NCBI GenBank assembly: GCA_900019385.1
Contig: FIZJ01000024.1
Span: 1-35,252 of the forward strand
Origin: an uncultured Clostridia bacterium
GTDB taxonomy: Bacteria; Bacillota; Limnochordia; Darwinibacteriales; DTU012
DNA length: 35,252 nucleotides
Direction of reading: 5' to 3'
The translations under genes and the position numbers were made by a program. Below are positions 18,568 to 34,110 of this stretch, one piece after another (the stretch's first letter is position 1; every line of letters begins with the position of its first letter). The notes beneath the pieces are model-generated. The model saw only the letters and a program-made list of their open reading frames with translations. It was not told the DNA's origin and did no database searches.

Positions 18568-19881
18568 CTACGACTGGCTAGCCTGGATCGCCTGATCAAG
18601 GTCAGCGATTATGTCTTCCGGGTCCTCTATTCCGACAGAGAGTCTGATGAACTCGTCGGATACACCTGCCTTTGCTCGCTCCTCTGGCGACAGTTGTTGA
18701 TGAGTGGTCGAAGCCGGATGTATGATGAGCGTCTTGGCATCCCCGATGTTTGCCAGATGAGAAATGAGCCGAACGGAGTCTATCAGCTTTGTCCCGGCGC
18801 TGTACCCGCCCTTGATCCCAAACCCGATGATTGCGCCAAAACCGTTGGTCAGATACTTGCGTGCTCTGTCGTGGTCAGGATGTCTTTCTAGCCCCGGGTA
18901 GTTGACCCATGCTATACTCGGGTGTCCTTCGAGCCACCTTGCCACCTTGAGGGCGTTTTCGCAGTGTCTGCTCATGCGTAGGTGAAGTGTCTCGAGCCCC
19001 TGCAGGATTAGAAACGAGTTAAACGGAGAAAGGACCGGGCCGAGGTCGCGCAGGAGCTGGCAGCGAGCCTTTGTTATGAAAGCAGTGCTTTTCGTTCCCA
19101 ACTCTCTGTCTCCGCCGAACGCTTGGTGCCACGAAATCCCATGGTACGAAGGATCCGGCTCGACTAGGTCCGGAAATCTCCCATTGTCCCAGTCAAACGT
19201 GCCTGATTCGACGATCGCCCCGCCGATAGAGGTGCCGTGGCCGCCGATGAACTTCGTCAGTGAGTGCACCACAATGTCGGCACCGAGCCCAAAAGGCCTC
19301 AGGAGGTAGGGGGTAGTAACAGTGTTGTCTACGATCAGAGGTATGCCGTTCTTGTGAGCGACCTCTGCGATGGCTTCGTAGTCGTCTACGTTGTTTTTGG
19401 GGTTTCCAATGGACTCTAGATAGACACACTTGGTCTTGTCGTCTATGGCTTTTTCGACATTGGTTGGATCGGAGGTGTCCACCAGTCTAGCTGTAATCCC
19501 GAGCTTTGAAAACGTGTGGTGAAATAGGTTGTAAGTGCCCCCATACAGGAAGCTGGAGGATACGATATTGTCTCCTGCCTTCGCTAGATTGAGAATGGCT
19601 AATGTGATGGCGGCCTGGCCTGACGAGACAGCCAGCGCGGCACTGCCGCCCTCAAGCTGTGCCAGCCTCTTTTCCAGCACGTCTGTGGTCGGATTTCCTA
19701 GTCGCGTGTAGATGTAGCCGGTATCTTTCAGACTGAAGAGGTCGGCTGCATGGGCAGACGAGTCAAACCCGTACGAGGTCGTCTGGTAGATCGGAACAGC
19801 TCTGGCCTTTGTAGCGGAGTCAATCGTCTGTCCGCCATGGATTGCGGTCGTGTCGAATGAGCAGCTGAGCTTGTCGGTCAT
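18568..19881 (-). CDS. metY: O-acetylhomoserine sulfhydrylase (aminocarboxypropyltransferase)
   Basis: A 437-residue PLP enzyme of the Cys/Met metabolism family that makes homocysteine from O-acetylhomoserine and sulfide. Family marks are [44 protein letters not shown] and the PLP lysine in [11 protein letters not shown]. The C-terminal [15 protein letters not shown] is typical of this branch. The start at 19881 has AGGAGG nine bases upstream; the longer frame from 19950 runs through the terminator and riboswitch and is not a gene. It is the first gene of the metY-metX pair. Confidence 0.94.
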
Positions 19882-19900
19882 CTTGTCATTCCTCCTAAGA

Positions 19901-19929
19901 GAAAACCCTCTTCGATGAGAAGAGGGTTC
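19901..19929 (-). terminator. Intrinsic terminator of the SAM riboswitch
   Basis: On the minus strand AACCCTCTTC and GAAGAGGGTT form a 10-bp stem with a 5-base loop, followed by TTTTCTCTT. It stands between the aptamer and metY and is the expected off-switch when S-adenosylmethionine is bound. No explicit anti-terminator pairing was worked out. Confidence 0.85.
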
Positions 19930-19939
19930 AAAACCGCCC

Positions 19940-20055
19940 TCTCTTCTCATCTTTCCGGCATAGTGCCGGCTGGAATTGGCACCTTTCCATCGTCTGATGG
20001 CGGTTGCCGAAGGGTCATTGGGCCAGTCCCTCGCCTTCTCTGGATAAGAAGATAG
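19940..20055 (-). promoter_or_regulatory. SAM-I (S-box) riboswitch
   Basis: The minus strand reads CTTATCCAGAGAAGGCGAGG, then GACTGGCCC, ATGA, CCCTTCGGCAACC, AAAGGTGCCAATTCC and a closing GATGAGAA that pairs with the opening TTCTTATC. These are the conserved helices and junctions of the SAM-I aptamer. It controls metY-metX by transcription termination in response to S-adenosylmethionine. Confidence 0.95.
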
Positions 20056-24186: not shown

Positions 24187-24711
24187 CTAGTTTAGAGTAA
24201 GAATTGTAGCCATTATGGTGTCTTCGTACGTGTCTGACGGCAGTTCCCACCAGGCGTCTCGAAGCAGCTCGGCGCCGAGGAATCGGACGTTCAGCCAGCC
24301 GCGGTATCTGCTGGGAGCTATAGGTGTGAAGGTTACTTCCTCTCCGCCTTGAAACGGCGGTGTGCTCGTTGGGCCGGATGGGTCGGGCTCGATGCTCGGT
24401 ATTTCCGGCCTGTCGAACACTTGATACCTCACGTATATGTTGAGCAACCGATTTGGAAACCCGACAGACCTCAGTTGAACCTGCACAGGGGCGTTTGTTG
24501 TCACAGTGAAGCTAGGCCAGTTCATGCCGTCTGTGCCCAGTGTGACACTTAGGTCGGTTGTTGACTGTTCCCATTCAAACTTGGCGTAAGGCGCAACCGA
24601 CGCCCTGACCTGCAGTGTGCGTGAATCGAACACCTCAGCAGACGTAGTTGCAGGCATTGCCAGAAGCGAGAGAACTGCAACCAGAGCTAACAGGCGTGAC
24701 TTTCTTAACAT
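24187..24711 (-). CDS. Secreted beta-rich subunit, SCPU/DUF4402-like (member 1)
   Basis: A 174-residue protein with a signal peptide ending near residue 25 (TTSAEV). The mature part opens with SRTLQVRASVAPYAKFEW, has a NAPVQVQL core strand, a Pro-rich loop near residues 110-125, and ends YEDTIMATILTL. This start, core and end pattern recurs in the four secreted proteins at 29299, 30050, 30811 and 33634. It resembles fibre subunits of the SCPU/DUF4402 type, which is inference. It lies 62 bases after the BTAD regulator on the same strand, so regulator and subunit are probably co-transcribed. GGAGGTG lies upstream of the ATG. Confidence 0.65.
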   Translation of the reverse strand: MLRKSRLLALVAVLSLLAMPATTSAEVFDSRTLQVRASVAPYAKFEWEQSTTDLSVTLGTDGMNWPSFTVTTNAPVQVQLRSVGFPNRLLNIYVRYQVFDRPEIPSIEPDPSGPTSTPPFQGGEEVTFTPIAPSRYRGWLNVRFLGAELLRDAWWELPSDTYEDTIMATILTLN

Positions 24712-24772
24712 ATCGGCCAGTCACCTCCAGCTACTAGGCTTGAGGGGCATTACACTCCACAACGGGCATCTA

Positions 24773-25990
24773 TTACAGCAAAACCGAGTCAAGCGGATAT
24801 TCCTTTCTGTCGTCATCAGGGTTGATGATCTCATAACTGATCTCACACGCACCGACGGATTTGTCTTCCAGCGCCTGATTGAGCCTTCTTGACACCAGCT
24901 TGACACCGGCCTTCTCAATGCCTGAAAGCAGAACCAGGATTAGCCCAGGCGACCACTGGCAAACAGCATCGCCCCTGCGAAGGCACAGCTGCACTGTTGA
25001 GAGAATATCGCGATCGGAGTGCTCGCTCTTGTCGCCGAGCTTGGTATTGATGGTGATGAGCCCAAGGGGCTTGCCGCTGCGACTGATCCTGCGACCCTCA
25101 AGCGTGGCGATGGACCTAAATGACTCTCTATCGCATATGAAAGCCCCTTCTCGCGGCGCTTCTACGCCTAGATCGCCATTGGCTGGCCGACTAGTCACTG
25201 CCAGCGACCGCTTCATGTTGCGAACCATCTCTTGAACTGCGGAACTAGGTTCCAGTCCGAACTCGTTCCGCAGCATGTCTGCGTAACGCTTGTATGCAGT
25301 GATTGCTTCGCTGTAGCGTTCAGCTTTGATGAGCGTGGAAATAAGAGCGAGATGGCCTTCTTCTCTGTACGGGTCAGTCTCCACTATTTTACGGCAGATC
25401 TGCAGGGCTGCGTTGCAGTCGTTCTTGTAGGTAAGCAGCAGTGTCGCGGCTCTCAGACTGATATCGATGTACATATCTCTATAGCGCTCTCTGAACGCGA
25501 TCGTCCAATCCTCATACAGGTCTTCCTGGAGAAAATCGCCCCTGTATAGCTTGAGCGCATGCTCACAGCTGCTCAACGCAGCAGCCGGATCCACGTGCTC
25601 GAGTTGCCTGCTGACCCCCACGCGCTCCTCAAAACTCTTGATGTCCAAGAAGGCGATGCTGTCCTTGTGTAGCCAGTAGAGTCCGTTGGAGTGCCGGATC
25701 GGAGATTCCTTACTGCTCCTAGACGCTGATTCTCCGCGAAGCGTTCTCCGCGCAAGGTGCACAACTGCATGCAGATTGTGACTGCAGTCTATTCCTTCGT
25801 TGTCTGGCCACAGCAGCTCGATCAGGACTTCATTGGGGACCTTTTCGCATTGCTTGGCAGCGAGGTACTTGAACAGAGTTAGAGCCTTCTTTGACTTCCA
25901 GTTTTCCTCTGTCAGAGTGGTCTTGTTGATCTGGAGCCTAAAGGGACCTAGCAGACTTATATGTAGCTGGCAGTTTTTTCTTTCTGTCAT
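24773..25990 (-). CDS. BTAD-domain transcriptional activator with degenerate GGDEF-like tail
   Basis: A 405-residue regulator of the SARP/BTAD group. Residues 1-95 are an OmpR-like winged helix (LHISLLGPFRLQIN..., NLHAVVHLARRTLR). Residues about 120-260 are the TPR-like BTAD domain, with LKLYRGDFLQEDLYEDW and YRDMYIDISLRAATLLL. Residues about 285-395 resemble a GGDEF domain in layout (CDRESFRSIATLEGRR, LRRGDAVCQWSPGLILVLLSG), but the GGDEF loop is replaced, so no cyclase activity is expected. The start at 25990 is preferred; the frame extended to 26122 lacks a ribosome site. It is divergent from the secretin gene and probably regulates the surface-protein cluster. Confidence 0.8.
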   Translation of the reverse strand: MTERKNCQLHISLLGPFRLQINKTTLTEENWKSKKALTLFKYLAAKQCEKVPNEVLIELLWPDNEGIDCSHNLHAVVHLARRTLRGESASRSSKESPIRHSNGLYWLHKDSIAFLDIKSFEERVGVSRQLEHVDPAAALSSCEHALKLYRGDFLQEDLYEDWTIAFRERYRDMYIDISLRAATLLLTYKNDCNAALQICRKIVETDPYREEGHLALISTLIKAERYSEAITAYKRYADMLRNEFGLEPSSAVQEMVRNMKRSLAVTSRPANGDLGVEAPREGAFICDRESFRSIATLEGRRISRSGKPLGLITINTKLGDKSEHSDRDILSTVQLCLRRGDAVCQWSPGLILVLLSGIEKAGVKLVSRRLNQALEDKSVGACEISYEIINPDDDRKEYPLDSVLL

Positions 25991-26100
25991 AGTGAGGCCC
26001 CCCAAAACACTCGCATTCGTCCATCTGGGACATGGTTTCGTGGATAGCAAAGGTGGGCTAATACCATGTTCCTCATTCTTCCTTTCTGCACTTTGTGCAT
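25987..26100 (-). CDS. Candidate leader peptide coupled to the BTAD regulator
   Basis: A 37-codon frame (MHKVQKGRMRNM...) follows GGAAGGAG closely and ends in TGA overlapping the regulator's ATG (ATGA). The regulator itself has only GGGG as a ribosome site, so coupling is plausible. No homology is known; it could be chance. Confidence 0.3.
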   Translation of the reverse strand: MHKVQKGRMRNMVLAHLCYPRNHVPDGRMRVFWGASL

Positions 26101-26341
26101 TTTCTCCTTCCGATGCTTCCATCTACGATTTTTCGATTGCTTACTCAAGCTTACTCGGGCGCTGTGCCTGCCGATGTCCCAGCTATGGGTCGTGAATCGC
26201 GTTTTAGATCTCTGTGAGAATCCGTTTGTAAAATAAACCGAGTCGTAATTGTTAGGTTTCCTAGAGTGAAGGTAAATCGCAGCTGACCTTGATTGGTTAT
26301 AGAGCCGGGATGACGTACAGGTCTAATGAGGAGGGTCCGTG

Positions 26342-27547
26342 ATGGTTCGAACTGTGAAGCGTGCAATACCTCTATGTGTGGTCATATCACTCCTTTATGC
26401 CAATGGCGCGTTGGCGAGCACCAGTGAGCAGCCTCTTGTCAATATGTTGTTCTTTGAGACCGACTTGCGCGAAGCTCTCAGCGAGATCTCCATGCAGACT
26501 GGAGTCAACATCATGCCTGACCAGACAGTGAGCGGAGCAGTCACTGCCGATCTGCAGGATGTTCCGCTGGAACAGGCTTTGAAGATCCTGCTCTTCGGAG
26601 GAGGGTACTCCTTCCGCAAGGTCGACGACAATCTCTACTTCGTTGGCCTGCCCGATCCGCGAAACACTAGCTTCGGTCAGCTGGTAGAGAGTGAAGTGAT
26701 CTTGCTGGACAACGTGACTGTCGCCCAGGTCATGGCAGTTTTGCCAAACTTCTTGACTAACTACGTAAAGGGCGAGCCGGATTCCAGAGTGCTGTCGATA
26801 TCAGCACCAGCGACCGAGATGGAGAGAATAAAGATACTCATCGAACGAATCGACCAGCCTCGAAAGCAAGTCGAGATAAGTGTGTTGATCACAGAGATCT
26901 CGTCCTCAGCCCTAAAGGACTTTGGAGTGGGCGGGGCAGGCACAAACGTGTCATATGACTTCCATGAGGGTCAGGTCTGGAACAAGGACTGGGGCGGAAA
27001 CTTGGGCCTCGCCGGGCAGCTCTTGTCGTTTGCTTTCGACGGTTATGGCAATCTCGAATCCGCGCTCAAGTTCCTCGAACAGGAGAACGAGGCCAAGGTA
27101 CATGCCGATCCGAAGATTGTGGTGGCTGATGGACAGCCGGCAGAGCTGTTTATTGGCGAGGAGCAGATTCTGCTGGTTGCAGCAGAGAGTACTACAGCAC
27201 CGACGACTGCCCGAGTAGAACGAGTAGAGGTCGGAGTGAGTATCAGAGTGACACCGACAGTTGTCGGCGATCAGGTATTTCTTAATATCGCTCCCGAGCT
27301 CAGTCACTTCATAAATCCCGCTGCATCTGATCTGGTAGTGAAGCAAGCCACACTAAGCACCACAGTCTGCCTGGCCAGTGGGCAGACGGCTGTCCTGGGC
27401 GGGATGACAATGCAAGAAACATCCGATAGGCAGAGCAAAGTCCCAATTCTGGGCGACATACCGATTATCCGGTGGTTGTTCAGAAACGAGGCGAGCCAGA
27501 AAACTGACAGGGAACTGCTGATCTTCGTAACCCCGGTGATTCTGTAG
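26342..27547 (+). CDS. Orphan secretin (PilQ/GspD superfamily outer-membrane channel)
   Basis: A 401-residue protein with a signal peptide (to about residue 25, GALAS). Next come an N0/STN-like domain (VNMLFFETDLREALSEIS...NIMPDQTVSG), an N1-like domain (VILLDNVTVAQVMAVLPNFL...SAPATEMERIKILIERIDQP) and the secretin core. The core includes VEISVLITEIS, DPKIVVADGQPAELFIGE, VGVSIRVTPTV and VPILGDIPIIRWLFR...ELLIFVTPVIL. Multimers form large outer-membrane gates. It is short for PilQ or GspD, and no pilin, ATPase or inner-membrane platform gene lies in the window. The ATG at 26342 has GGAGGG six bases upstream. It heads a run of secreted-protein genes. Confidence 0.9.
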   Translation: MVRTVKRAIPLCVVISLLYANGALASTSEQPLVNMLFFETDLREALSEISMQTGVNIMPDQTVSGAVTADLQDVPLEQALKILLFGGGYSFRKVDDNLYFVGLPDPRNTSFGQLVESEVILLDNVTVAQVMAVLPNFLTNYVKGEPDSRVLSISAPATEMERIKILIERIDQPRKQVEISVLITEISSSALKDFGVGGAGTNVSYDFHEGQVWNKDWGGNLGLAGQLLSFAFDGYGNLESALKFLEQENEAKVHADPKIVVADGQPAELFIGEEQILLVAAESTTAPTTARVERVEVGVSIRVTPTVVGDQVFLNIAPELSHFINPAASDLVVKQATLSTTVCLASGQTAVLGGMTMQETSDRQSKVPILGDIPIIRWLFRNEASQKTDRELLIFVTPVIL

Positions 27548-27562
27548 ACAGGGGAGAGTCAG

Positions 27563-28942
27563 ATGAAGCGCGTAGGAGTGATACTGCTGTTTGCCGCTTT
27601 GCTGTGTTTCAGCATACAGGCTTCGCCGACTGTTAGCGCGGCGCTGGGCGAGCAAGTGGTGTCGTCAGAACTTGAGCGGTCAAGTGCCCAGACGTCGCCC
27701 GGAGGCCAGCCTACCAGCAGCGGCATCGCAAAGCAGCTATTGGCGCCAGGGTGGGAGCATCCTCATATTGCCCAGAGTGTACCGGTAGTTGTGTATACGG
27801 TAAGTCTATCTGAGCTGGACTCGAGCATGGCGAGTCGTCTTGAGTTCGGCTTTGAGACTGCAAATGGTGTACAAGACGGTGTCTGGGATGTGACCTTTGA
27901 TCATGCTGTCGTGCGCCTTTTGCGAGAGGCCTCTGATGCGTTGCACTCCAAGGTCTCAGGCTCTGTCGAAGAGCAGCGTAGTGCTGTCGGATATCAGTCC
28001 TGGTTGGTCACACTTGAGGAACGCCCTGTTGAGGTCTTGATCCAACAGACGACAGTGCTCCCGTCTGCGGAGAGCCAAGAGAGGGACTCGGAGTTCAGGC
28101 TTAGGCTGACACCGCGGCACGTTGATGCGGTCAGTAATGTGGTCTTGACTGAGCTAGAGCTTGACCTTCTGACCCCGTCTGGCGGAGTGGGGAGGGCTAA
28201 GTCCAGTGTGCTTGTTTCGACAGAACCTCAGCCGATGGCTGTTGTAAAGAGGGCAGTCGCAGCGACAAATGAGTCCGAGGATCTGTACTTCGCTATGTAC
28301 TTGTCAGCTGATGTGGTGTCTTCAGCGCAGCTGCCTAGAGATGTCGCGTTGCTGCCCATCGGGTCTATAGGAGGCTTTCAGCAGCTGTTTGAGGAGAGGC
28401 GCTTCGAAAGCGTCCAACCAGCGCCGCAGTGGAGGATTAGTCTAGCAGGGGGGCATGATCTGCGATTTGGTGTTGTCTGCGCATTTCCGTTGTCAAGCAA
28501 ACTCTCCGTCCGTGGGAATCTTGAAATGAGTGAGAAGGGACTTGGCGGCTATGCAGACGTTTCAGTCGAGGTTCATGATAGATTGGGGATTGCCGTCCAG
28601 ATCGACAAGAGAGGAAGCGGTGGGTCTCCAATTGTCAGGTTGGGGTTGGTAGACGAGACCGTACTTGGCGACAGGCTTCACCTTAGAGCGACGTATCTGC
28701 CTATCCAGATTGATCTCAGTAAGGCTGACATAACGGCGTCTAGTTGTGTGACCCTTGAGGCCGTTCTAAAGCAGACGAATTGGGATCTCTGGTATCAGAG
28801 GTGTTGGTACAACGGCGGGCTTGACAATGAGATAGGCATGACATTGGCAACCGGGTCGCACACTGGGGTTGACTTCAGTTGGCTCAGGGATCGCGACGGC
28901 AGTACGTGGTTTAGGATAGGAGTCGTCTTCAGGATTCTTTGA
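27563..28942 (+). CDS. Probable outer-membrane or periplasmic partner of the secretin
   Basis: A 459-residue exported protein (signal peptide to about residue 27, TVSAAL). Residues about 60-230 contain repeated strand-like segments without a known motif. From about 240 to the end, short alternating strands and the terminus WFRIGVVFRIL suggest a beta-barrel, though the last residue is Leu rather than Phe. It starts 15 bases after the secretin stop behind GGGGAGAG, so the pair is almost certainly one transcript. I do not recognise a named family. A channel-assembly or surface-anchoring role is inferred from position. Confidence 0.6.
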   Translation: MKRVGVILLFAALLCFSIQASPTVSAALGEQVVSSELERSSAQTSPGGQPTSSGIAKQLLAPGWEHPHIAQSVPVVVYTVSLSELDSSMASRLEFGFETANGVQDGVWDVTFDHAVVRLLREASDALHSKVSGSVEEQRSAVGYQSWLVTLEERPVEVLIQQTTVLPSAESQERDSEFRLRLTPRHVDAVSNVVLTELELDLLTPSGGVGRAKSSVLVSTEPQPMAVVKRAVAATNESEDLYFAMYLSADVVSSAQLPRDVALLPIGSIGGFQQLFEERRFESVQPAPQWRISLAGGHDLRFGVVCAFPLSSKLSVRGNLEMSEKGLGGYADVSVEVHDRLGIAVQIDKRGSGGSPIVRLGLVDETVLGDRLHLRATYLPIQIDLSKADITASSCVTLEAVLKQTNWDLWYQRCWYNGGLDNEIGMTLATGSHTGVDFSWLRDRDGSTWFRIGVVFRIL

Positions 28943-29028
28943 TTTTTGAGTCAGTTTTGAGTCCGGTTTTACTGCAGTTTGATTGCATGAGTCTATGCTT
29001 GTATTGAGAAAGCAAGGAGGGTCGTCAG

Positions 29029-29259
29029 ATGAGTGCAACCCGATGCCCCGACAGGATCAGAGCGACTGGGAACACGTTTGTAGTCAGGATCCTACGCAAC
29101 GAGCACGGCACCTGGCAAGGCACAGTAGGTCATGTCCAGTCCGGGGCTATGGCAAGCTTCCGAAGTTGCCTAGAACTCATTCAGTACATCAACAGAGAGT
29201 TAGAAAGACAGGGCCGGAGCGATGCCGAGACACCGCTTAAGAAGGTTGGCAATATATGA
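29029..29259 (+). CDS. Small conserved cytoplasmic protein
   Basis: A 76-residue protein without a signal peptide. It has TFVVRILRNEHGTWQGTVGHV followed by FRSCLELIQYINREL, a pattern seen in many short uncharacterised Firmicutes proteins (strand, WQG-V, then an F-R-S-x-x-E-L-I helix). AAGGAGGG lies ahead of the ATG. It is placed between the secretin pair and the secreted subunits, on the same strand, 40 bases before the next gene. A regulatory role is a guess. Confidence 0.75.
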   Translation: MSATRCPDRIRATGNTFVVRILRNEHGTWQGTVGHVQSGAMASFRSCLELIQYINRELERQGRSDAETPLKKVGNI

Positions 29260-29298
29260 ATGAGGATTGCCGCGGTCTTGCGTTAAGGAGGAGGGCAT

Positions 29299-29787
29299 AT
29301 GCGAGGTAGACTCTGGCTGGTATTGCTACTCGGGTTTCTCATGGTAGCGGTATCCGCGAGCGTCGCGAATGCAAGTCGTAAAGTATCCCTCACAGACACA
29401 CTCGAAGTGGCAGCGACGGTGGAGAAGTACGCCGTGTCTTTTATAAAGAACCCACTGACCTTCAATATCAGTGGTGCGGTAGGCTCTTACAGGGAAACGA
29501 AAACAGCGACCTACAGCCTCGAGGTCAATACACCGGTAAGAGTGGTTTTCTCAGCCAGCCCTCTGGCGTACATCAGCGATCCTCGCTATGTGCTGGACGT
29601 GACTTACTGGGTCAATTCACATCGCAGCAAGTTCAGGCCTGGTGAAGATCTTACTCTAATCGCCAATTACGCTGGTGTGCAGACTCTCAACTACGAGATC
29701 TTCGGAGAAGTAGTGATACACCAGGTATCTGCTCAACCAGCGGGTCAATACGCCGGCGTTATCACAGTGACAGTATCTGCATTGTAG
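29299..29787 (+). CDS. Secreted beta-rich subunit, SCPU/DUF4402-like (member 2)
   Basis: A 162-residue protein with a signal peptide ending near residue 26 (VANAS). The mature part opens with TDTLEVAATVEKYAVSF, has the core strand VNTPVRVVFSASPL and ends AGQYAGVITVTVSAL. It parallels member 1 (NAPVQVQL core, YEDTIMATILTL end) and the other three. The G-x-Y-x-G-x-I-x-V-T-V terminus is the last strand typical of SCPU/DUF4402-like and other sandwich-fold surface proteins. AAGGAGGAGG stands before the ATG. Confidence 0.65.
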   Translation: MRGRLWLVLLLGFLMVAVSASVANASRKVSLTDTLEVAATVEKYAVSFIKNPLTFNISGAVGSYRETKTATYSLEVNTPVRVVFSASPLAYISDPRYVLDVTYWVNSHRSKFRPGEDLTLIANYAGVQTLNYEIFGEVVIHQVSAQPAGQYAGVITVTVSAL

Positions 29788-29942
29788 CAGCGTCTTGCCG
29801 GATCAGTCTACGTTGCGCCCCCAGAGGCGTGAAAGGGGAGATGAAAGTCACAAGGGTGGAAGTTCTCGATTAGTTTGGCAGTCTCATAGGTGTTGCCGAG
29901 GTTTGGAAAGCTCTATAGGTCAAATATCTCTGATCCTGCTCT

Positions 29943-29997
29943 TTGGAAGCAATGATCCGTCGTCCTTTAACTGGTCACCAATGGGGTGGCGGGGAGC
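29943..29997 (+). repeat. 55-bp non-coding element, copy A
   Basis: This stretch matches 33228-33282 at 44 of 55 positions without a gap. Shared strings are TTGGAAGC, ATGATCCGT and GGGTGGCGG. It lies about 50 bases before the subunit gene at 30050. The hairpin possible in copy B is mostly lost here, so sequence rather than RNA shape seems to be kept. Confidence 0.6.
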
Positions 29998-30049
29998 TAG
30001 TGGTGAAACCGTCCAAAGCTGAGGACAAAACAAAGAGGAGGAAGATTTG

Positions 30050-30661
30050 ATGAAGAGGATACTTGTACTGGGTGTGACCCTGATGCTGCTCGTAGCTATG
30101 GGCAGTGTGGCAATGGCGGAGATTGACGATGCTGCGTTGTCAATCGGGGCTGACGTAGCGACATTTGGTGAGATTAGAGATTGGCCTGAATTCCTGGATT
30201 TGGGCACTCTCAGTGGTGAGGCTGGAGACGAGAAGGATGCAGAGACAGATCGGTTCCGAATAGTCCGCAACGACGCTCTGCTGATCACTCTCAACCTTAT
30301 CAAGCCGCTGACCTCACAATATGAGATTGACATAATTGATTGGTTTCCGCCAAACGCGCAAGTACGAGTTCAACTCGGGACCACTGTCACCCTGTCACAG
30401 CAAGTAGTTAAGAGGTTCCTTGGCTTTCCTGTCGGCGCTGAGTGGAAGGAGCGGATTGTAGTTTCAGCAGGGCCGAACGTGCCGGACAACCCTATCGGCT
30501 CCTTTGTCACAAGTGATTACGGTGACTATGTTCTGGGCAAGCTCAAGGGGGCTATTGGCTACAAGATCAAGGTCCACGCTGTCTTGGGTGACATCGACGA
30601 TCAGCCTGCAGGCGGCTATGAGGGCGAGGTAGTGCTCACGATTAGCGCTCCTCTATCCTAA
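30050..30661 (+). CDS. Secreted beta-rich subunit, SCPU/DUF4402-like (member 3)
   Basis: A 203-residue protein with a signal peptide ending near residue 23 (AMAEI). It opens with AALSIGADVATFGEI, continues ETDRFRIVRNDALLITLNLIKPLT and ends GDIDDQPAGGYEGEVVLTISAP. It is the close relative of member 4 at 30811: ETDxFxIVRN, a KPLT end to the same strand, and the GDIDDQPAG...LTISAP tail, so the two are a tandem duplication. The ATG at 30050 lies eight bases after AGGAGG. It carries no catalytic motif and is probably structural. Confidence 0.65.
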   Translation: MKRILVLGVTLMLLVAMGSVAMAEIDDAALSIGADVATFGEIRDWPEFLDLGTLSGEAGDEKDAETDRFRIVRNDALLITLNLIKPLTSQYEIDIIDWFPPNAQVRVQLGTTVTLSQQVVKRFLGFPVGAEWKERIVVSAGPNVPDNPIGSFVTSDYGDYVLGKLKGAIGYKIKVHAVLGDIDDQPAGGYEGEVVLTISAPLS

Positions 30662-30672
30662 GTATGGCACCT

Positions 30673-30716
30673 TGTGTCAGGAGCAGATCGTCGATCTGAC
30701 GTTCTCTCCTGACACA
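30673..30716 (+). repeat. Nested perfect inverted repeats between members 3 and 4
   Basis: TGTGTCAGGAG (30673-30683) and CTCCTGACACA (30706-30716) are perfect 11-bp arms. Inside, CAGATCG-T-CGATCTG (30684-30698) is a second palindrome. There is no T tract. A further TCTCAG/CTGAGA palindrome lies near 30740. It could be an operator, a processing hairpin or a weak terminator. Confidence 0.6.
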
Positions 30717-30810
30717 TCTGATCGCGGCCATCCTGGGCATCTCAGAGATCTGAGATCTGCGAGACGCGGGCCTAGGGTGGCCGGATTGGGCGGTACAGGA
30801 GGAATATCGG

Positions 30811-31491
30811 ATGAAGAGAACACTGAGCGTACTGGCGTTAATTTTAGTCCTGGCGCTCTTGACGACTACAAGCAGCGTTGCTTTGGCAGAGAGTCTGCAT
30901 TGTTGGCCTTGGCCATTTCCCTGGCCTCCGGATGATGGCGGAGGAAGTGGGGGCGGAGGAGGCAATCAGGATCCTGACCCAGGAAACGGTATCGGATCGT
31001 CTCAGACTGTCTACGTGGGCGCCGAGGTATTGCCTTACGGCGAGATTCAAAATCTGTCGGGGTCATTGCATGTAGGCCAGCTTAGCGGTGAGTCCGGAGC
31101 TACGGTGAGTGAAGAAACCGATGACTTCCAGATAGTTCGGAATGCGCCTCTCACGGTGACCCTCAGCATCACTAAACCACTGACCCTGATAAACAGCAAG
31201 ACTGGCGATTTCAGGGAGTACAGCATAGAGACGACAGCAGAGCTCTTGCGCCAGAATCCTAAGTCGGGCAGATGGGGGGCCCCTGTGATTTCGGCCACGA
31301 GAGGTCCGAGCGTGCCCGAAGACCAATGGTCCGCTACTTGCGAGCTTGGTGAGTTCGAGGAGTACGTAGCAGAGAAATTCAAGAATTGGCGCCTCCGAGT
31401 AACTGCTACCTTGGGCGACATAGACGATCAGCCTGCAGGTACCTACGGAGGAGAGATAGTCCTAACGATCAGTGCCCCGTCTGGTTCATAG
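30811..31491 (+). CDS. Secreted beta-rich subunit with Trp/Pro and Gly-rich N-terminus (member 4)
   Basis: A 226-residue protein. The signal peptide ends near residue 26 (VALAES) and is followed by HCWPWPFPWPPDD and a glycine-serine stretch before the shared domain begins at VYVGAEVLPYGEI. The body matches member 3 (ETDDFQIVRNAPLTVTLSITKPLT; tail GDIDDQPAGTYGGEIVLTISAP). The aromatic-proline segment and flexible linker are absent from the other four and may expose an attachment or polymerisation strand. One Cys lies in that segment. CAGGAGGA precedes the ATG. Confidence 0.65.
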   Translation: MKRTLSVLALILVLALLTTTSSVALAESLHCWPWPFPWPPDDGGGSGGGGGNQDPDPGNGIGSSQTVYVGAEVLPYGEIQNLSGSLHVGQLSGESGATVSEETDDFQIVRNAPLTVTLSITKPLTLINSKTGDFREYSIETTAELLRQNPKSGRWGAPVISATRGPSVPEDQWSATCELGEFEEYVAEKFKNWRLRVTATLGDIDDQPAGTYGGEIVLTISAPSGS

Positions 31492-31687
31492 AAAAGGGAG
31501 CTGCGGATTGGCACTGGGTCTGTACCGTGTTGGCCTGGGTGTCGCGGTTTGCGAAAGATTACCCTGAGCGCCTCTTACTGCCTCACTCAGATCGATTCGA
31601 GGCGTCTGACATCCACGGATAAAGCTCAGGGTGCTCTAGCGTGTTCACCTCGTGCGAAAGCAGATCTGATAACTAGGAGGACTCTAA

Positions 31688-33220
31688 ATGCTCCGGAAAT
31701 ACTCCGCTACCATAGCACTACTTGCACTGATCTTATTGCTCTTGTCTGCCGAGGTAGGTGCTGTAGGGGTACGGCCGTTGGCACTAGACATGTACCTTCA
31801 GCCAGGAGACACGAGCGAGTTTGAGCTGATCCTGTCTCCAGAACCTACGCAACAAGTCGTCAGTTTGAGCCTTTTTCGTCCGGTTCAGCTGATCAACGGA
31901 GCATTGGCTTACGAAGAAGGCGATGCGTCAATCTACAAGGCGATAGACTGGATTCATCTTGAACAAGAACGGGTGGTTGTTAATCCCGGCGAGGACACAA
32001 TCGTCAAGGGGCGTGTAAGAGTTCCGTTTGACGCTGGTGGCTCCTATATCGTGGTCGTTATGGTGGAGCCCGAAGGAAGCACTGGGCACGTTGAGGGTGC
32101 TAGCGGAGTAGTATTCCGAGTCCGGTACGCTGTCAGGATCGCAATACATGTTGATCGGCCGGGATTGAGGCCTTCGGCCGAGGTTGTTGATTTTCAACTG
32201 GTCCCTGACGAGGAAAGGAGGCCGCTGGTTGTCACACACATCGTTAACCCGTCTCCTCTCATGTATTCGGTCTCCGCTGAGGTGACCATCAGAGATCAGA
32301 ATCGACGGCTGGTTCAGCGTATCGATCTGCAAACGCAAACCGCGCGGGATTCAGGATTGCTGTCAACCAGTATCTTCCCAGGCAGTCAGCTGCGGTTGGA
32401 GGGAGCGGTCACCGAGCCTCTGTTCCCGGGGGACTACGAGATGCGCCTGTTTCTGCGGTATGCGGATGGGCGACAAGTCATCAAGAGAGAGCAAATCAGC
32501 TTGACTGGTGGCGAGTTCAACCAAGATGACCGCATGGCCTGCCTCAAGGTCGAGCCTGAGGGTATTGAGGTAAGCATGAGGCCGGGCGGATCAGCAACGC
32601 AAGTGATTGAGATGACAAACAGAATCGGTGAGCCTGTAACCGTGCAGATCGTAGGTAGCAACATAAGAGACGAGTATCCTTACTCGATCTTTGATTCGCT
32701 AGAAGTCGGCTTGAGAGGACAGACTGAGCTCACGCTGGAGCCCCGAAGGCCGGGCAGAAGCATACTGACAATCCGTGCACCTCGTGAGGTGGCAGATGGA
32801 GGGTATTATGGAAACCTAGAAATCGGAGTCTTCTCCGAGGCGGGTGACCTGGTTGAAGTTCATACAGTTCCTATTAGCGCTGTAGTCGGGAGCCCATCGG
32901 ATTACAAGGTTGACATCCTGAGTCTCCACGCCGACTACTACGATGGAGAGTGCTTGCTGAGCCTGGCAGTCCAGAACCGGGGCAATGTCCATGTAATCCC
33001 CAGTGCGACTGCATACATCAAGGACAGCCAAGGGGTTGTTATTAGCACCCAACAGCTGACTCTCCAGGAGGGAATAAGTAGGATACTGCCAGAGAAGGTC
33101 GCTTACCTCACAGCTACGGCGTCAAATCTTGAGCCGGGTGAGTATGTAGTCGATATCAGTGTGCGCCAAGACGCGTTTGAGCTGGTGCGGTCAGAGATGC
33201 CGCTACTGATTGCGGAGTGA
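31688..33220 (+). CDS. Large Ig-like exported protein (pilus-chaperone or DUF916-like)
   Basis: A 510-residue protein with a signal peptide to about residue 25. Residues 26-165 open with VRPLALDMYLQPGDTSEFEL, as PapD-type chaperones and DUF916 proteins do, and include AIDWIHLEQERVVVNPGED...RVRVPFDAGGSY. Residues about 166-275 form a second sandwich (VVTHIVNPSPLMYSVSAEVT...LFPGDYEMRLFL), about 285-400 a third (GGYYGNLEIGVFSE), and the last part resembles CARDB (LAVQNRGNVHVIPSATAYI). There is no cell-wall anchor. AGGAGG stands before the ATG. It probably binds or folds the small subunits beside it. There is no usher gene, so this is not a standard chaperone-usher set. Confidence 0.6.
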   Translation: MLRKYSATIALLALILLLLSAEVGAVGVRPLALDMYLQPGDTSEFELILSPEPTQQVVSLSLFRPVQLINGALAYEEGDASIYKAIDWIHLEQERVVVNPGEDTIVKGRVRVPFDAGGSYIVVVMVEPEGSTGHVEGASGVVFRVRYAVRIAIHVDRPGLRPSAEVVDFQLVPDEERRPLVVTHIVNPSPLMYSVSAEVTIRDQNRRLVQRIDLQTQTARDSGLLSTSIFPGSQLRLEGAVTEPLFPGDYEMRLFLRYADGRQVIKREQISLTGGEFNQDDRMACLKVEPEGIEVSMRPGGSATQVIEMTNRIGEPVTVQIVGSNIRDEYPYSIFDSLEVGLRGQTELTLEPRRPGRSILTIRAPREVADGGYYGNLEIGVFSEAGDLVEVHTVPISAVVGSPSDYKVDILSLHADYYDGECLLSLAVQNRGNVHVIPSATAYIKDSQGVVISTQQLTLQEGISRILPEKVAYLTATASNLEPGEYVVDISVRQDAFELVRSEMPLLIAE

Positions 33221-33227
33221 ACGAGCA

Positions 33228-33282
33228 TTGGAAGCGATGATCCGTTATCCCCTAAACGGTCATCAACAGGGTGGCGGCGAGC
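33228..33282 (+). repeat. 55-bp non-coding element, copy B
   Basis: This is the second copy of the element at 29943-29997 (44 of 55 identical, no gap). Here GATGA-T-CCGTT and AACGG-TCATC can pair into a 10-bp hairpin whose loop CCCC could meet the following GGG. It begins eight bases after the Ig-like gene ends and precedes the riboswitch promoter. Confidence 0.6.
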
Positions 33283-33336
33283 ACCTCCGGAGAGTTGGAG
33301 ATCGTAATGGACAGGGTTGTATATACAGTTTAAGGG

Positions 33337-33365
33337 TTGTCAAAGCACAAAAAGTGGTATATAGT
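33337..33365 (+). promoter_or_regulatory. Promoter of the c-di-GMP riboswitch transcript
   Basis: TTGTCA (33337-33342) and TATAGT (33360-33365) are spaced by 17 bases. The expected start is near 33372, about 20 bases before the aptamer, so the last subunit gene has its own transcript. Confidence 0.7.
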
Positions 33366-33393
33366 GTAATCAGGAGTTGAATATTTAGATATA

Positions 33394-33488
33394 CCTTCAC
33401 CGATAAAGGCAAATCCGTCGAAAGATGGAGGCGCAAAGCCACAGGCCTAAGGCAGTTTGCTATGGCGGCTGGGTTACCGAAGGAAGGC
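33394..33488 (+). promoter_or_regulatory. c-di-GMP-I (GEMM-I) riboswitch
   Basis: The strand reads AAAGGCAAATCC, TCGAAAGATGG, GGCGCAAAGCCACAGGCCTAAGG (shown in parts), TATGGCGGCTGGGTTACCGAAG. These match the conserved GEMM-I core: GCAAA, the GAAA tetraloop, ACGCAAAGCC-like joint (here GCGCAAAGCC), CCTAA receptor and GGGTTACCG. Flanking CCTTC and GAAGG close the base helix. It places the secreted protein at 33634 under cyclic di-GMP control. Confidence 0.95.
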
Positions 33489-33499
33489 CGCAGACTACC

Positions 33500-33540
33500 A
33501 AGCCTGTCATTCCTATCGGGAAGGACAGGCTTGTTGTTTG
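33500..33540 (+). terminator. Terminator of the c-di-GMP riboswitch
   Basis: AAGCCTGTC/GACAGGCTT plus TTCC/GGAA form a 13-bp stem with one mismatch and a 5-base loop, followed by GTTGTTTG. It lies 12 bases after the aptamer, so the switch most likely acts by transcription termination. The polarity (on or off with ligand) was not worked out. Confidence 0.8.
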
Positions 33541-33633
33541 AGGCCCCTTCAGCGGAACAGTCTTTGAAGACGCAAAGATCGGTCTAGAAGGCGAGATCTA
33601 GATGGATTCGGACTGCCCTAGGAGGGGTGCAGT

Positions 33634-34110
33634 ATGAGAAACCATGGGTTTGTGATAGTTGGACTAGCCTTGGTGCTGGTATTCGCAATAGTGATTACAA
33701 CCTCGGCTCGAGTTCTCGATCAGCGAAGCTTGCGAATACGAGTCAGCGTTGCAGCCATGCAGGAATTACAGGTGTTGGAGCCTGTGGCTGTAGCTGTGAG
33801 TTATCCTTGGGAAGGAGCAGACCAGGGTAGGCCGCTCGAAATCAAGAATGTCGGAATGGTGCGGATTAGGAGCAACTCTGGATGGGTGCTATACCCGGAT
33901 GTTGTGTCGAATTCGAGATTCAGAGTGTCTGTCAGACCGTCAAACAGCCCGACTGCCAATTGGATGGTAGTGTCAGGCAACAACCCGGTGATCGCGGGCT
34001 CTATGGGATCTTACGACCTCAGTTTCGATGTGCGGGTTGAAACCTCAGGCAGTGGTTTGGGGCAGTATCAGGAGATCATTGAGTTGGGGTTTACAGCCAG
34101 CCAGCCGTAG
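33634..34110 (+). CDS. c-di-GMP-controlled secreted beta-rich subunit (member 5)
   Basis: A 158-residue protein with a signal peptide or N-terminal anchor (hydrophobic residues about 6-24, then TSARV). The mature part opens with QRSLRIRVSVAAMQEL, close to member 1 (SRTLQVRASVAPY), has the core MVRIRSNSGWVLYP and ends LGQYQEIIELGFTAS. It is the most diverged member, but strand order and spacing are shared. It alone has a private promoter, a GEMM-I aptamer and a terminator, so its dose follows cyclic di-GMP separately from the rest. GGAGGGG precedes the ATG. Confidence 0.7.
   Translation: MRNHGFVIVGLALVLVFAIVITTSARVLDQRSLRIRVSVAAMQELQVLEPVAVAVSYPWEGADQGRPLEIKNVGMVRIRSNSGWVLYPDVVSNSRFRVSVRPSNSPTANWMVVSGNNPVIAGSMGSYDLSFDVRVETSGSGLGQYQEIIELGFTASQP

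Follow-up and report, generated by a model that had tools for sequence, protein, structure and literature searches.

A predicted secretin-gated pathway with cyclic di-GMP switches for exporting and assembling pilin-like subunits in diderm Bacillota

The 35,252-nucleotide stretch of DNA analysed here (the window) is contig FIZJ01000024.1 (C24) of an uncultured Clostridia bacterium (assembly GCA_900019385.1; G000), whose genome measures 2.17 Mb and is 97.7% complete. The host is a member of the Limnochordia (diderm Bacillota); an outer membrane has been seen by electron microscopy in cultured Limnochordia relatives (PMC11456536). Near the end of the window lies a locus encoding a transcriptional regulator, a short secretin, a second putative outer-membrane protein, a large protein with immunoglobulin-like (Ig) domains and five small secreted beta-rich proteins, termed subunits below, together with aptamers for cyclic di-GMP (c-di-GMP). 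Genes are named by their first coordinate (Table 1). A first-pass annotation, made from the sequence alone, had described this set, and Pfam, Rfam and gene calls recovered every element that it named. It had counted one riboswitch. The c-di-GMP-I (GEMM-I) aptamer is confirmed, at 83 bits against an Rfam gathering threshold of 35, but a c-di-GMP-II aptamer (62.5 bits against 53.5) and a truncated copy had been missed.

Table 1. Genes and RNA elements of the locus, with positions in the window.
Feature	Coordinates	Strand	Evidence or remark
Small beta-rich secreted subunit, 3ʹ to the BTAD gene	24187-24711	-	related to the 29299 group by profile
BTAD/SARP-type regulator, divergent from the secretin	24773-26122	-	PF03704 2e-20
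Short secretin (SEC), about 400 residues	26339-27547	+	PF00263 2e-41, STN, Secretin_N
Secretin-derived core (about 75-252) and predicted 12-stranded outer-membrane barrel (289-457)	27563-28942	+	profile-profile comparison, AlphaFold2
Conserved cytosolic-looking protein of 76 residues (P0001)	29029-29259	+	homologs in L028, L030, L222
Subunit, predicted chaperone-usher-pilin-like sandwich	29299-29787	+	AlphaFold2, Foldseek
c-di-GMP-II aptamer, upstream of subunit 30047	29936-30023	+	RF01786, 62.5 bits
Subunit, likely start ATG 30050	30047-30661	+	39% identity to 30811
Subunit with Gly/Pro-rich linker 3ʹ of the signal peptide	30811-31491	+	
Multi-Ig periplasmic or secreted protein (IG), remote WxLIP (DUF916-DUF3324) homolog, candidate chaperone	31688-33220	+	profile match to 9i1y, 9i25
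Truncated c-di-GMP-II aptamer copy, 3ʹ third gone	33227-33283	+	
c-di-GMP-I (GEMM-I) aptamer	33398-33481	+	RF01051, 83 bits
Strong hairpin and subsequent U-rich run, a probable terminator or expression platform of the GEMM-I switch	33499-33533	+	-23.2 kcal/mol
Subunit of a separate sequence family	33634-34110	+	orthologs in relatives sit behind c-di-GMP-I aptamers

The arrangement is not a product of chance, since the gene set was found again in dozens of genomes. Homologs of 27563 were detected in 27 of 61 relatives by single-sequence search and, by profile search, in 41 genomes of a class sample of 73, most of which are draft metagenome-assembled genomes (MAGs). In 20 neighbourhoods, the 27563 homolog adjoins a secretin 47-56% identical to 26339 wherever the contig permits, and the pair is usually accompanied by BTAD, Ig and subunit genes. 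The BTAD regulator, which adjoins the pair in many relatives, is a conserved member of the cluster. More widely conserved than 27563 is the Ig gene, present in 56 of the 73 class genomes and in 36 of the 199 genomes of a phylum sample. A same-strand secretin lies within 8 kb of 51 of the 61 class Ig matches taken as full length (median gap 882 bp), and several of the 10 misses fall near contig ends; in the phylum sample, a secretin of about 400 residues directly follows the Ig gene at all 15 further loci with the relevant flank. The gene set thus recurs in related genomes, which bears out the first-pass annotation on this point. The usual gene order is subunits, Ig protein, secretin and outer-membrane-barrel-like protein, and this core, which spans several Bacillota families and Thermotogota MAGs, is found in Mesoaciditoga and Thermotogae MAGs as well as in Halanaerobium saccharolyticum MSL 17.2.

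The host genome carries the cluster a second time (L021 8337-13752, G000:C53); this copy comprises a secretin, a barrel protein, a BTAD gene and a relative of 33634, and an S-adenosylmethionine (SAM) riboswitch lies just downstream of it. Another uncultured bacterium encodes three successive secretin-like proteins of 455, 610 and 550 residues (L083 9791-14626), and the PF00263 core is strong in two of these. In three relatives, matches to group II intron domains were found near subunit genes (L026 9035-9202, L027 7293-7463 and L039 8026-8198).

For the surface fibres of diderm bacteria, the generally recognised routes through the outer membrane are an usher, a secretin with a pilus motor, and an amyloid channel. 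The gate at this locus, 26339, belongs to the secretin superfamily by its core and its N-domains (Table 1). Neither an usher nor a pilus partner set had been noticed in the first-pass annotation, and the wider search agrees: the operon itself encodes neither type IV pilins nor an assembly ATPase or platform, and the usher family (PF00577), detected in the E. coli control, occurs in 0 of the 73 class genomes. It could still be proposed that 26339 is the gate of a type IV pilus (T4P), Tad or type II secretion system (T2SS) encoded elsewhere and that its neighbours are incidental; its sequence family is PilQ/GspD-like, and most class genomes carry some pilus locus. This proposal is highly improbable, because pilus and Tad loci carry their own secretins and the Ig gene keeps its secretin partner across the phylum. 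The host genome encodes three secretins, namely 26339, its paralog in the second cluster copy, and one of about 840 residues that adjoins a Tad-type ATPase and two single-domain T2SSF genes (L183 5021-11939, G000:C11). Similarly, every T2SSF locus of Halanaerobium, Mesoaciditoga and a Thermotogae MAG shares its contig with a secretin of its own, and the secretins linked to Ig genes are found on other contigs.

The independence of the system is also evident in genomes that carry it and lack a candidate motor. Two genomes assembled as single contigs have neither T2SSF (PF00482) nor T2SSE (PF00437) above cut-off; the sole secretin of one (G057) directly follows the Ig gene, and the other (G051) has two Ig-secretin pairs. 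Three MAGs that are 97-98% complete (G018, G029 and G047) likewise have no assembly ATPase (PF00437) or platform (PF00482) above cut-off, and a fourth, 91% complete (G019), has no platform above cut-off and a single short, doubtful ATPase match (26.6 bits, E 1e-6). G013 and G028 were excluded from this list, as their T2SSE matches indicate lost contigs. Ownership of the secretin by a T2SS or T4P operon elsewhere, a possibility that the first-pass annotation had considered, was not found, and a role for 26339 as the PilQ or GspD of another machine was rejected on the separate secretins of pilus and Tad loci and the absence of a platform from G057 and G051.

The second outer-membrane candidate, 27563, has no Pfam match, and a narrow profile of its family retrieved no relevant solved structure. 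Direct comparison of the family profile with a close secretin set gave nothing (6.6%); comparison of an enlarged family with an enlarged secretin set including intermediates gave 93.3% probability (E 2.7e-7), with the match to the secretin core covering residues 63-252 of the family model. The intermediates are proteins of 560 residues (L168, L070 and L076) in which the first 200-263 residues match the secretin profile and the rest matches the 27563 family; that of L076, which is identical in sequence to G016:C269, also has an STN domain above cut-off. In an AlphaFold2 model of 27563 (mean predicted local distance difference test score [pLDDT] 78, predicted template modelling score [pTM] 0.48), residues 75-252 form a region of helices and strands, the order of whose elements, on our reading, parallels that of the secretin core, followed at 289-457 by twelve strands with pLDDT mostly above 90. 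In a structure search, these strands match the porin KdgM (TM-score 0.74 by target, 3.7 A), and FapF is also among the matches. Because of the intermediates, the profile match to the core and the twelve modelled strands, 27563 is probably a secretin paralog that has lost N0-N1 and carries a predicted porin-like barrel, which agrees with its earlier designation as a second likely outer-membrane protein. In other families, the operon position of 27563 is taken either by a complete secretin-like protein or by just a small barrel-like one.

As the nearest folds of the barrel are 12-stranded oligosaccharide porins, the locus might instead encode a nutrient-capture device in which a KdgM/NanC-like porin works with Ig and beta-sandwich proteins that bind surface polysaccharide. 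Glycogen or sugar genes do adjoin some loci (L170 and L171), but these metabolic neighbours differ between genomes; the operon always includes a secretin, and a secretin-derived domain forms part of the barrel protein itself. With subunits that resemble pilins and not carbohydrate-binding modules, and with c-di-GMP control that suits adhesion, this alternative is improbable.

The resemblance to pilins comes from the predicted structure of 29299, which AlphaFold2 models as a beta sandwich with an unstructured mature N-terminus (mean pLDDT 86.9, pTM 0.69). All seven Foldseek matches in the PDB below E 1e-3 are chaperone-usher pilus proteins, among them CfaB, FimF, the PapG pilin domain and CsuA/B, and lower-ranked matches include archaeal donor-strand filaments and cannulae. 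The best PDB sequence matches of the subunit profile include Caf1 and CsuE, at an only suggestive E of 0.04-0.1. The first-pass annotation had described five related subunits. Four are related by profile comparison (29299, 30047, 30811 and 24187; 96.8%, 96.2% and 92.0%, with 24187 matching the 29299 group at 96.8% in hhalign), whereas 33634 shares with them only its small secreted size and an N-terminal alternating-strand motif; a common fold is accordingly backed by one modelled sandwich and by the kinship of these four. Loci hold many paralogous subunits. Most of 37 subunits, the five of the window among them, have an alternating-hydrophobic strand close to the start of the mature protein, and its moment exceeds background (1.62 versus 0.90, p=3e-12). 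This strand fits a donor strand but could be an ordinary first strand of the sandwich.

The Ig protein connects the locus to a surface system of Gram-positive bacteria. Pfam gave only sub-threshold matches for its family, most often to WxLIP_PGBD (PF06030; 5 of 15 members, best 0.0017), and a narrow profile found no relevant solved structure. A profile of divergent members, however, matched the Enterococcus faecium WxLIP protein EfmWxLIP1 over both domains (9i1y, E 5.8e-9), with a further PDB match to 9i25 (E 9.7e-9). The protein is therefore a WxLIP homolog, albeit by remote sequence similarity. Of the earlier label "PapD/DUF916-like", the DUF916 half has held; the PapD half has not, as comparison of the profile with PDB sequences up to E 10 returned no PapD-type chaperone. 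A further WxLIP search around one genome (G131) gave nothing new.

Published AlphaFold models predict that the WxL sandwich has a gap which a WxLIP strand fills in parallel orientation, and a role in stabilising WxL proteins on the cell surface has been proposed for WxLIP (PMC10599100). A WxLIP strand that fills its partner's gap would make WxLIP chaperone-like, and the Ig protein may likewise act as a periplasmic chaperone. The subunits were also considered as WxL domains themselves, an idea left unsupported by hhalign (<1%) and by Pfam, in which none of 38 subunits matches WxL, although subunits and WxL domains share a similar AGxY...T-strand at the end. At one further locus (L195 2234-3760, G095), a WxLIP-like protein of 306 residues follows a secreted protein of 200 residues and lacks a neighbouring secretin; this arrangement may be related, in monoderm style, to the Ig-subunit pair. 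The Thermotoga maritima control genome contains both a secretin and PF06030 matches over cut-off.

The kinship with WxLIP also lends itself to a different interpretation, secretin-gated display without polymerisation, in which single coat or adhesin proteins are exported and the Ig protein serves as a surface or wall anchor. Such a role would accord with that proposed for WxLIP, and a switchable coat would be consistent with the many subunit paralogs found at each locus. The closest structural neighbours of the modelled subunit, however, are donor-strand fibres that polymerise, the alternating N-terminal strand would be typical of a donor strand, and the Ig sequence has no evident C-terminal membrane helix, unlike WxLIP. 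We regard display of this kind as unlikely, though the prospect is a serious one.

Control of the locus appears to be directed at the subunits. Intact aptamers precede only two of the five subunits of the window. The truncated and apparently decayed copy, found past the Ig gene and before the GEMM-I aptamer, aligns without gaps over 55 nt (score 55; null maximum 28); it was rejected as a second full c-di-GMP-II aptamer, being far below the Rfam threshold with its 3ʹ third gone. Curated c-di-GMP aptamers stand upstream of small secreted subunit-type genes at eight loci, namely the window, L025, L030, L028, L175, L177, Halanaerobium L077 and L167/L076, the last two names being counted as one locus; at L175 and L177 the targets are small secreted proteins without profile confirmation as subunits. 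The aptamers belong to c-di-GMP-I, its GGC variant, c-di-GMP-II and its GAG variant, and in two cases tandem c-di-GMP-I-type aptamers precede 33634 orthologs. At none of the eight loci does an aptamer directly precede the secretin or Ig gene. The c-di-GMP sensed by these riboswitches would decide which subunits are made. Elsewhere in the window, a SAM riboswitch (19944-20050, minus strand) lies upstream of the minus-strand gene 18568-19950 and is unrelated to the locus.

The gene system, its recurrence, its independence and its homologies are computational observations. The explanation that we favour for them, with a probability of about 0.58, is a self-contained, secretin-gated system for outer-membrane export and assembly of pilin-like subunits, with c-di-GMP selecting the subunit. 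The distinct export or fibre-assembly system under c-di-GMP control that the first-pass annotation had proposed, with aptamers now known at eight loci, stands as the best inference. PapD-type chaperones lend a strand that completes the sandwich of their subunit. In the favoured scheme, subunits would leave the cytoplasm by Sec, via their signal peptides, and be capped in the periplasm by the Ig protein, whose strand would complete each incomplete sandwich as predicted for WxLIP and WxL and as in PapD-type chaperones. A secretin ring with its secretin-derived barrel partner would form the exit gate in place of an usher, and subunits would polymerise through exchange of N-terminal strands; such exchange would supply the energy, so that no ATPase would be needed. 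The product may be a surface fibre or adhesive coat. The c-di-GMP switches would pick among subunits, while the secretin and Ig genes, which lack an aptamer, may be set by the BTAD regulator.

Several points weigh against this scheme. Only one subunit has been modelled, and its TM-scores to pilins are moderate, at about 0.45-0.57; 33634 is tied to the other four by neither sequence nor profile comparison, and the subunits bear no detectable relation to the WxL domain. The putative chaperone role of the Ig protein draws on remote homology. Many relatives have no Rfam-detectable aptamer, and a secretin would have to carry out the ordered exchange that ushers perform. More generally, filament, export and binding are proposals for a system known from genes and predictions.

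A broader proposal, somewhat more apt to fail than to hold, is that the locus represents a new "chaperone-secretin" pathway for donor-strand fibres in diderm Bacillota and Thermotogota, with a WxLIP-type chaperone delivering the pilin-like subunits to a gate made of the secretin and the secretin-barrel protein, and an ancestral counterpart linking Gram-positive WxL clusters and Gram-negative chaperone-usher pili. As far as could be found, the system is widespread and apparently undescribed; no account of this operon or system was found among the open-access papers searched. It is common in deep diderm Bacillota and pairs chaperone-usher-like subunits with a pilus-type secretin gate without the partner set of either. 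It would mean that these little-studied lineages possess a surface organelle and would suggest a common origin for the WxLIP-WxL and chaperone-pilin partnerships. The mixed aptamer classes on subunit genes provide a natural example of a single messenger selecting surface proteins. The cultured Limnochordia strains LN-T and L945-T bear envelope filaments of unexplained make-up, suggested to be electron conduits (PMC11456536), for which this system is a candidate source.

Among known systems, chaperone-usher pili (FimC/D, CFA/I and the archaic Csu) provide the closest parallel, with small Sec-exported subunits of matching predicted fold, a periplasmic Ig protein encoded beside them and no ATPase. 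They differ in having an usher, where the gate here consists of a secretin and a secretin-derived barrel, and in chaperones of the PapD type, to which the WxLIP-like Ig protein has no detectable sequence link. Gram-positive WxL clusters, which combine WxL and WxLIP proteins, share the homologous Ig protein over both its domains and the small secreted beta-sandwich partners encoded alongside. Unlike those clusters, the present system occurs in diderm hosts and includes a secretin and a barrel, its subunits lack a detectable WxL domain and its Ig protein shows no obvious transmembrane helix at the C-terminus. Type IV filament machines (T4P, T2SS and Tad) use a secretin of the same superfamily (PF00263); however, the operon described here contains no ATPase, platform or type IV pilins, and ATPase and platform are absent from some whole carrier genomes. 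Fap resembles it in exporting without an ATPase and through FapF, a structural match of the barrel, but here the barrel is fused to a secretin core, a secretin is present, and the subunits are folded sandwiches, not amyloid repeats. Finally, as in the c-di-GMP-I and c-di-GMP-II regulons of pili and adhesins, RF01051 and RF01786 aptamers precede genes for surface proteins; unlike in those regulons, both classes, together with the GGC and GAG variants, serve the subunit-type genes of one system.

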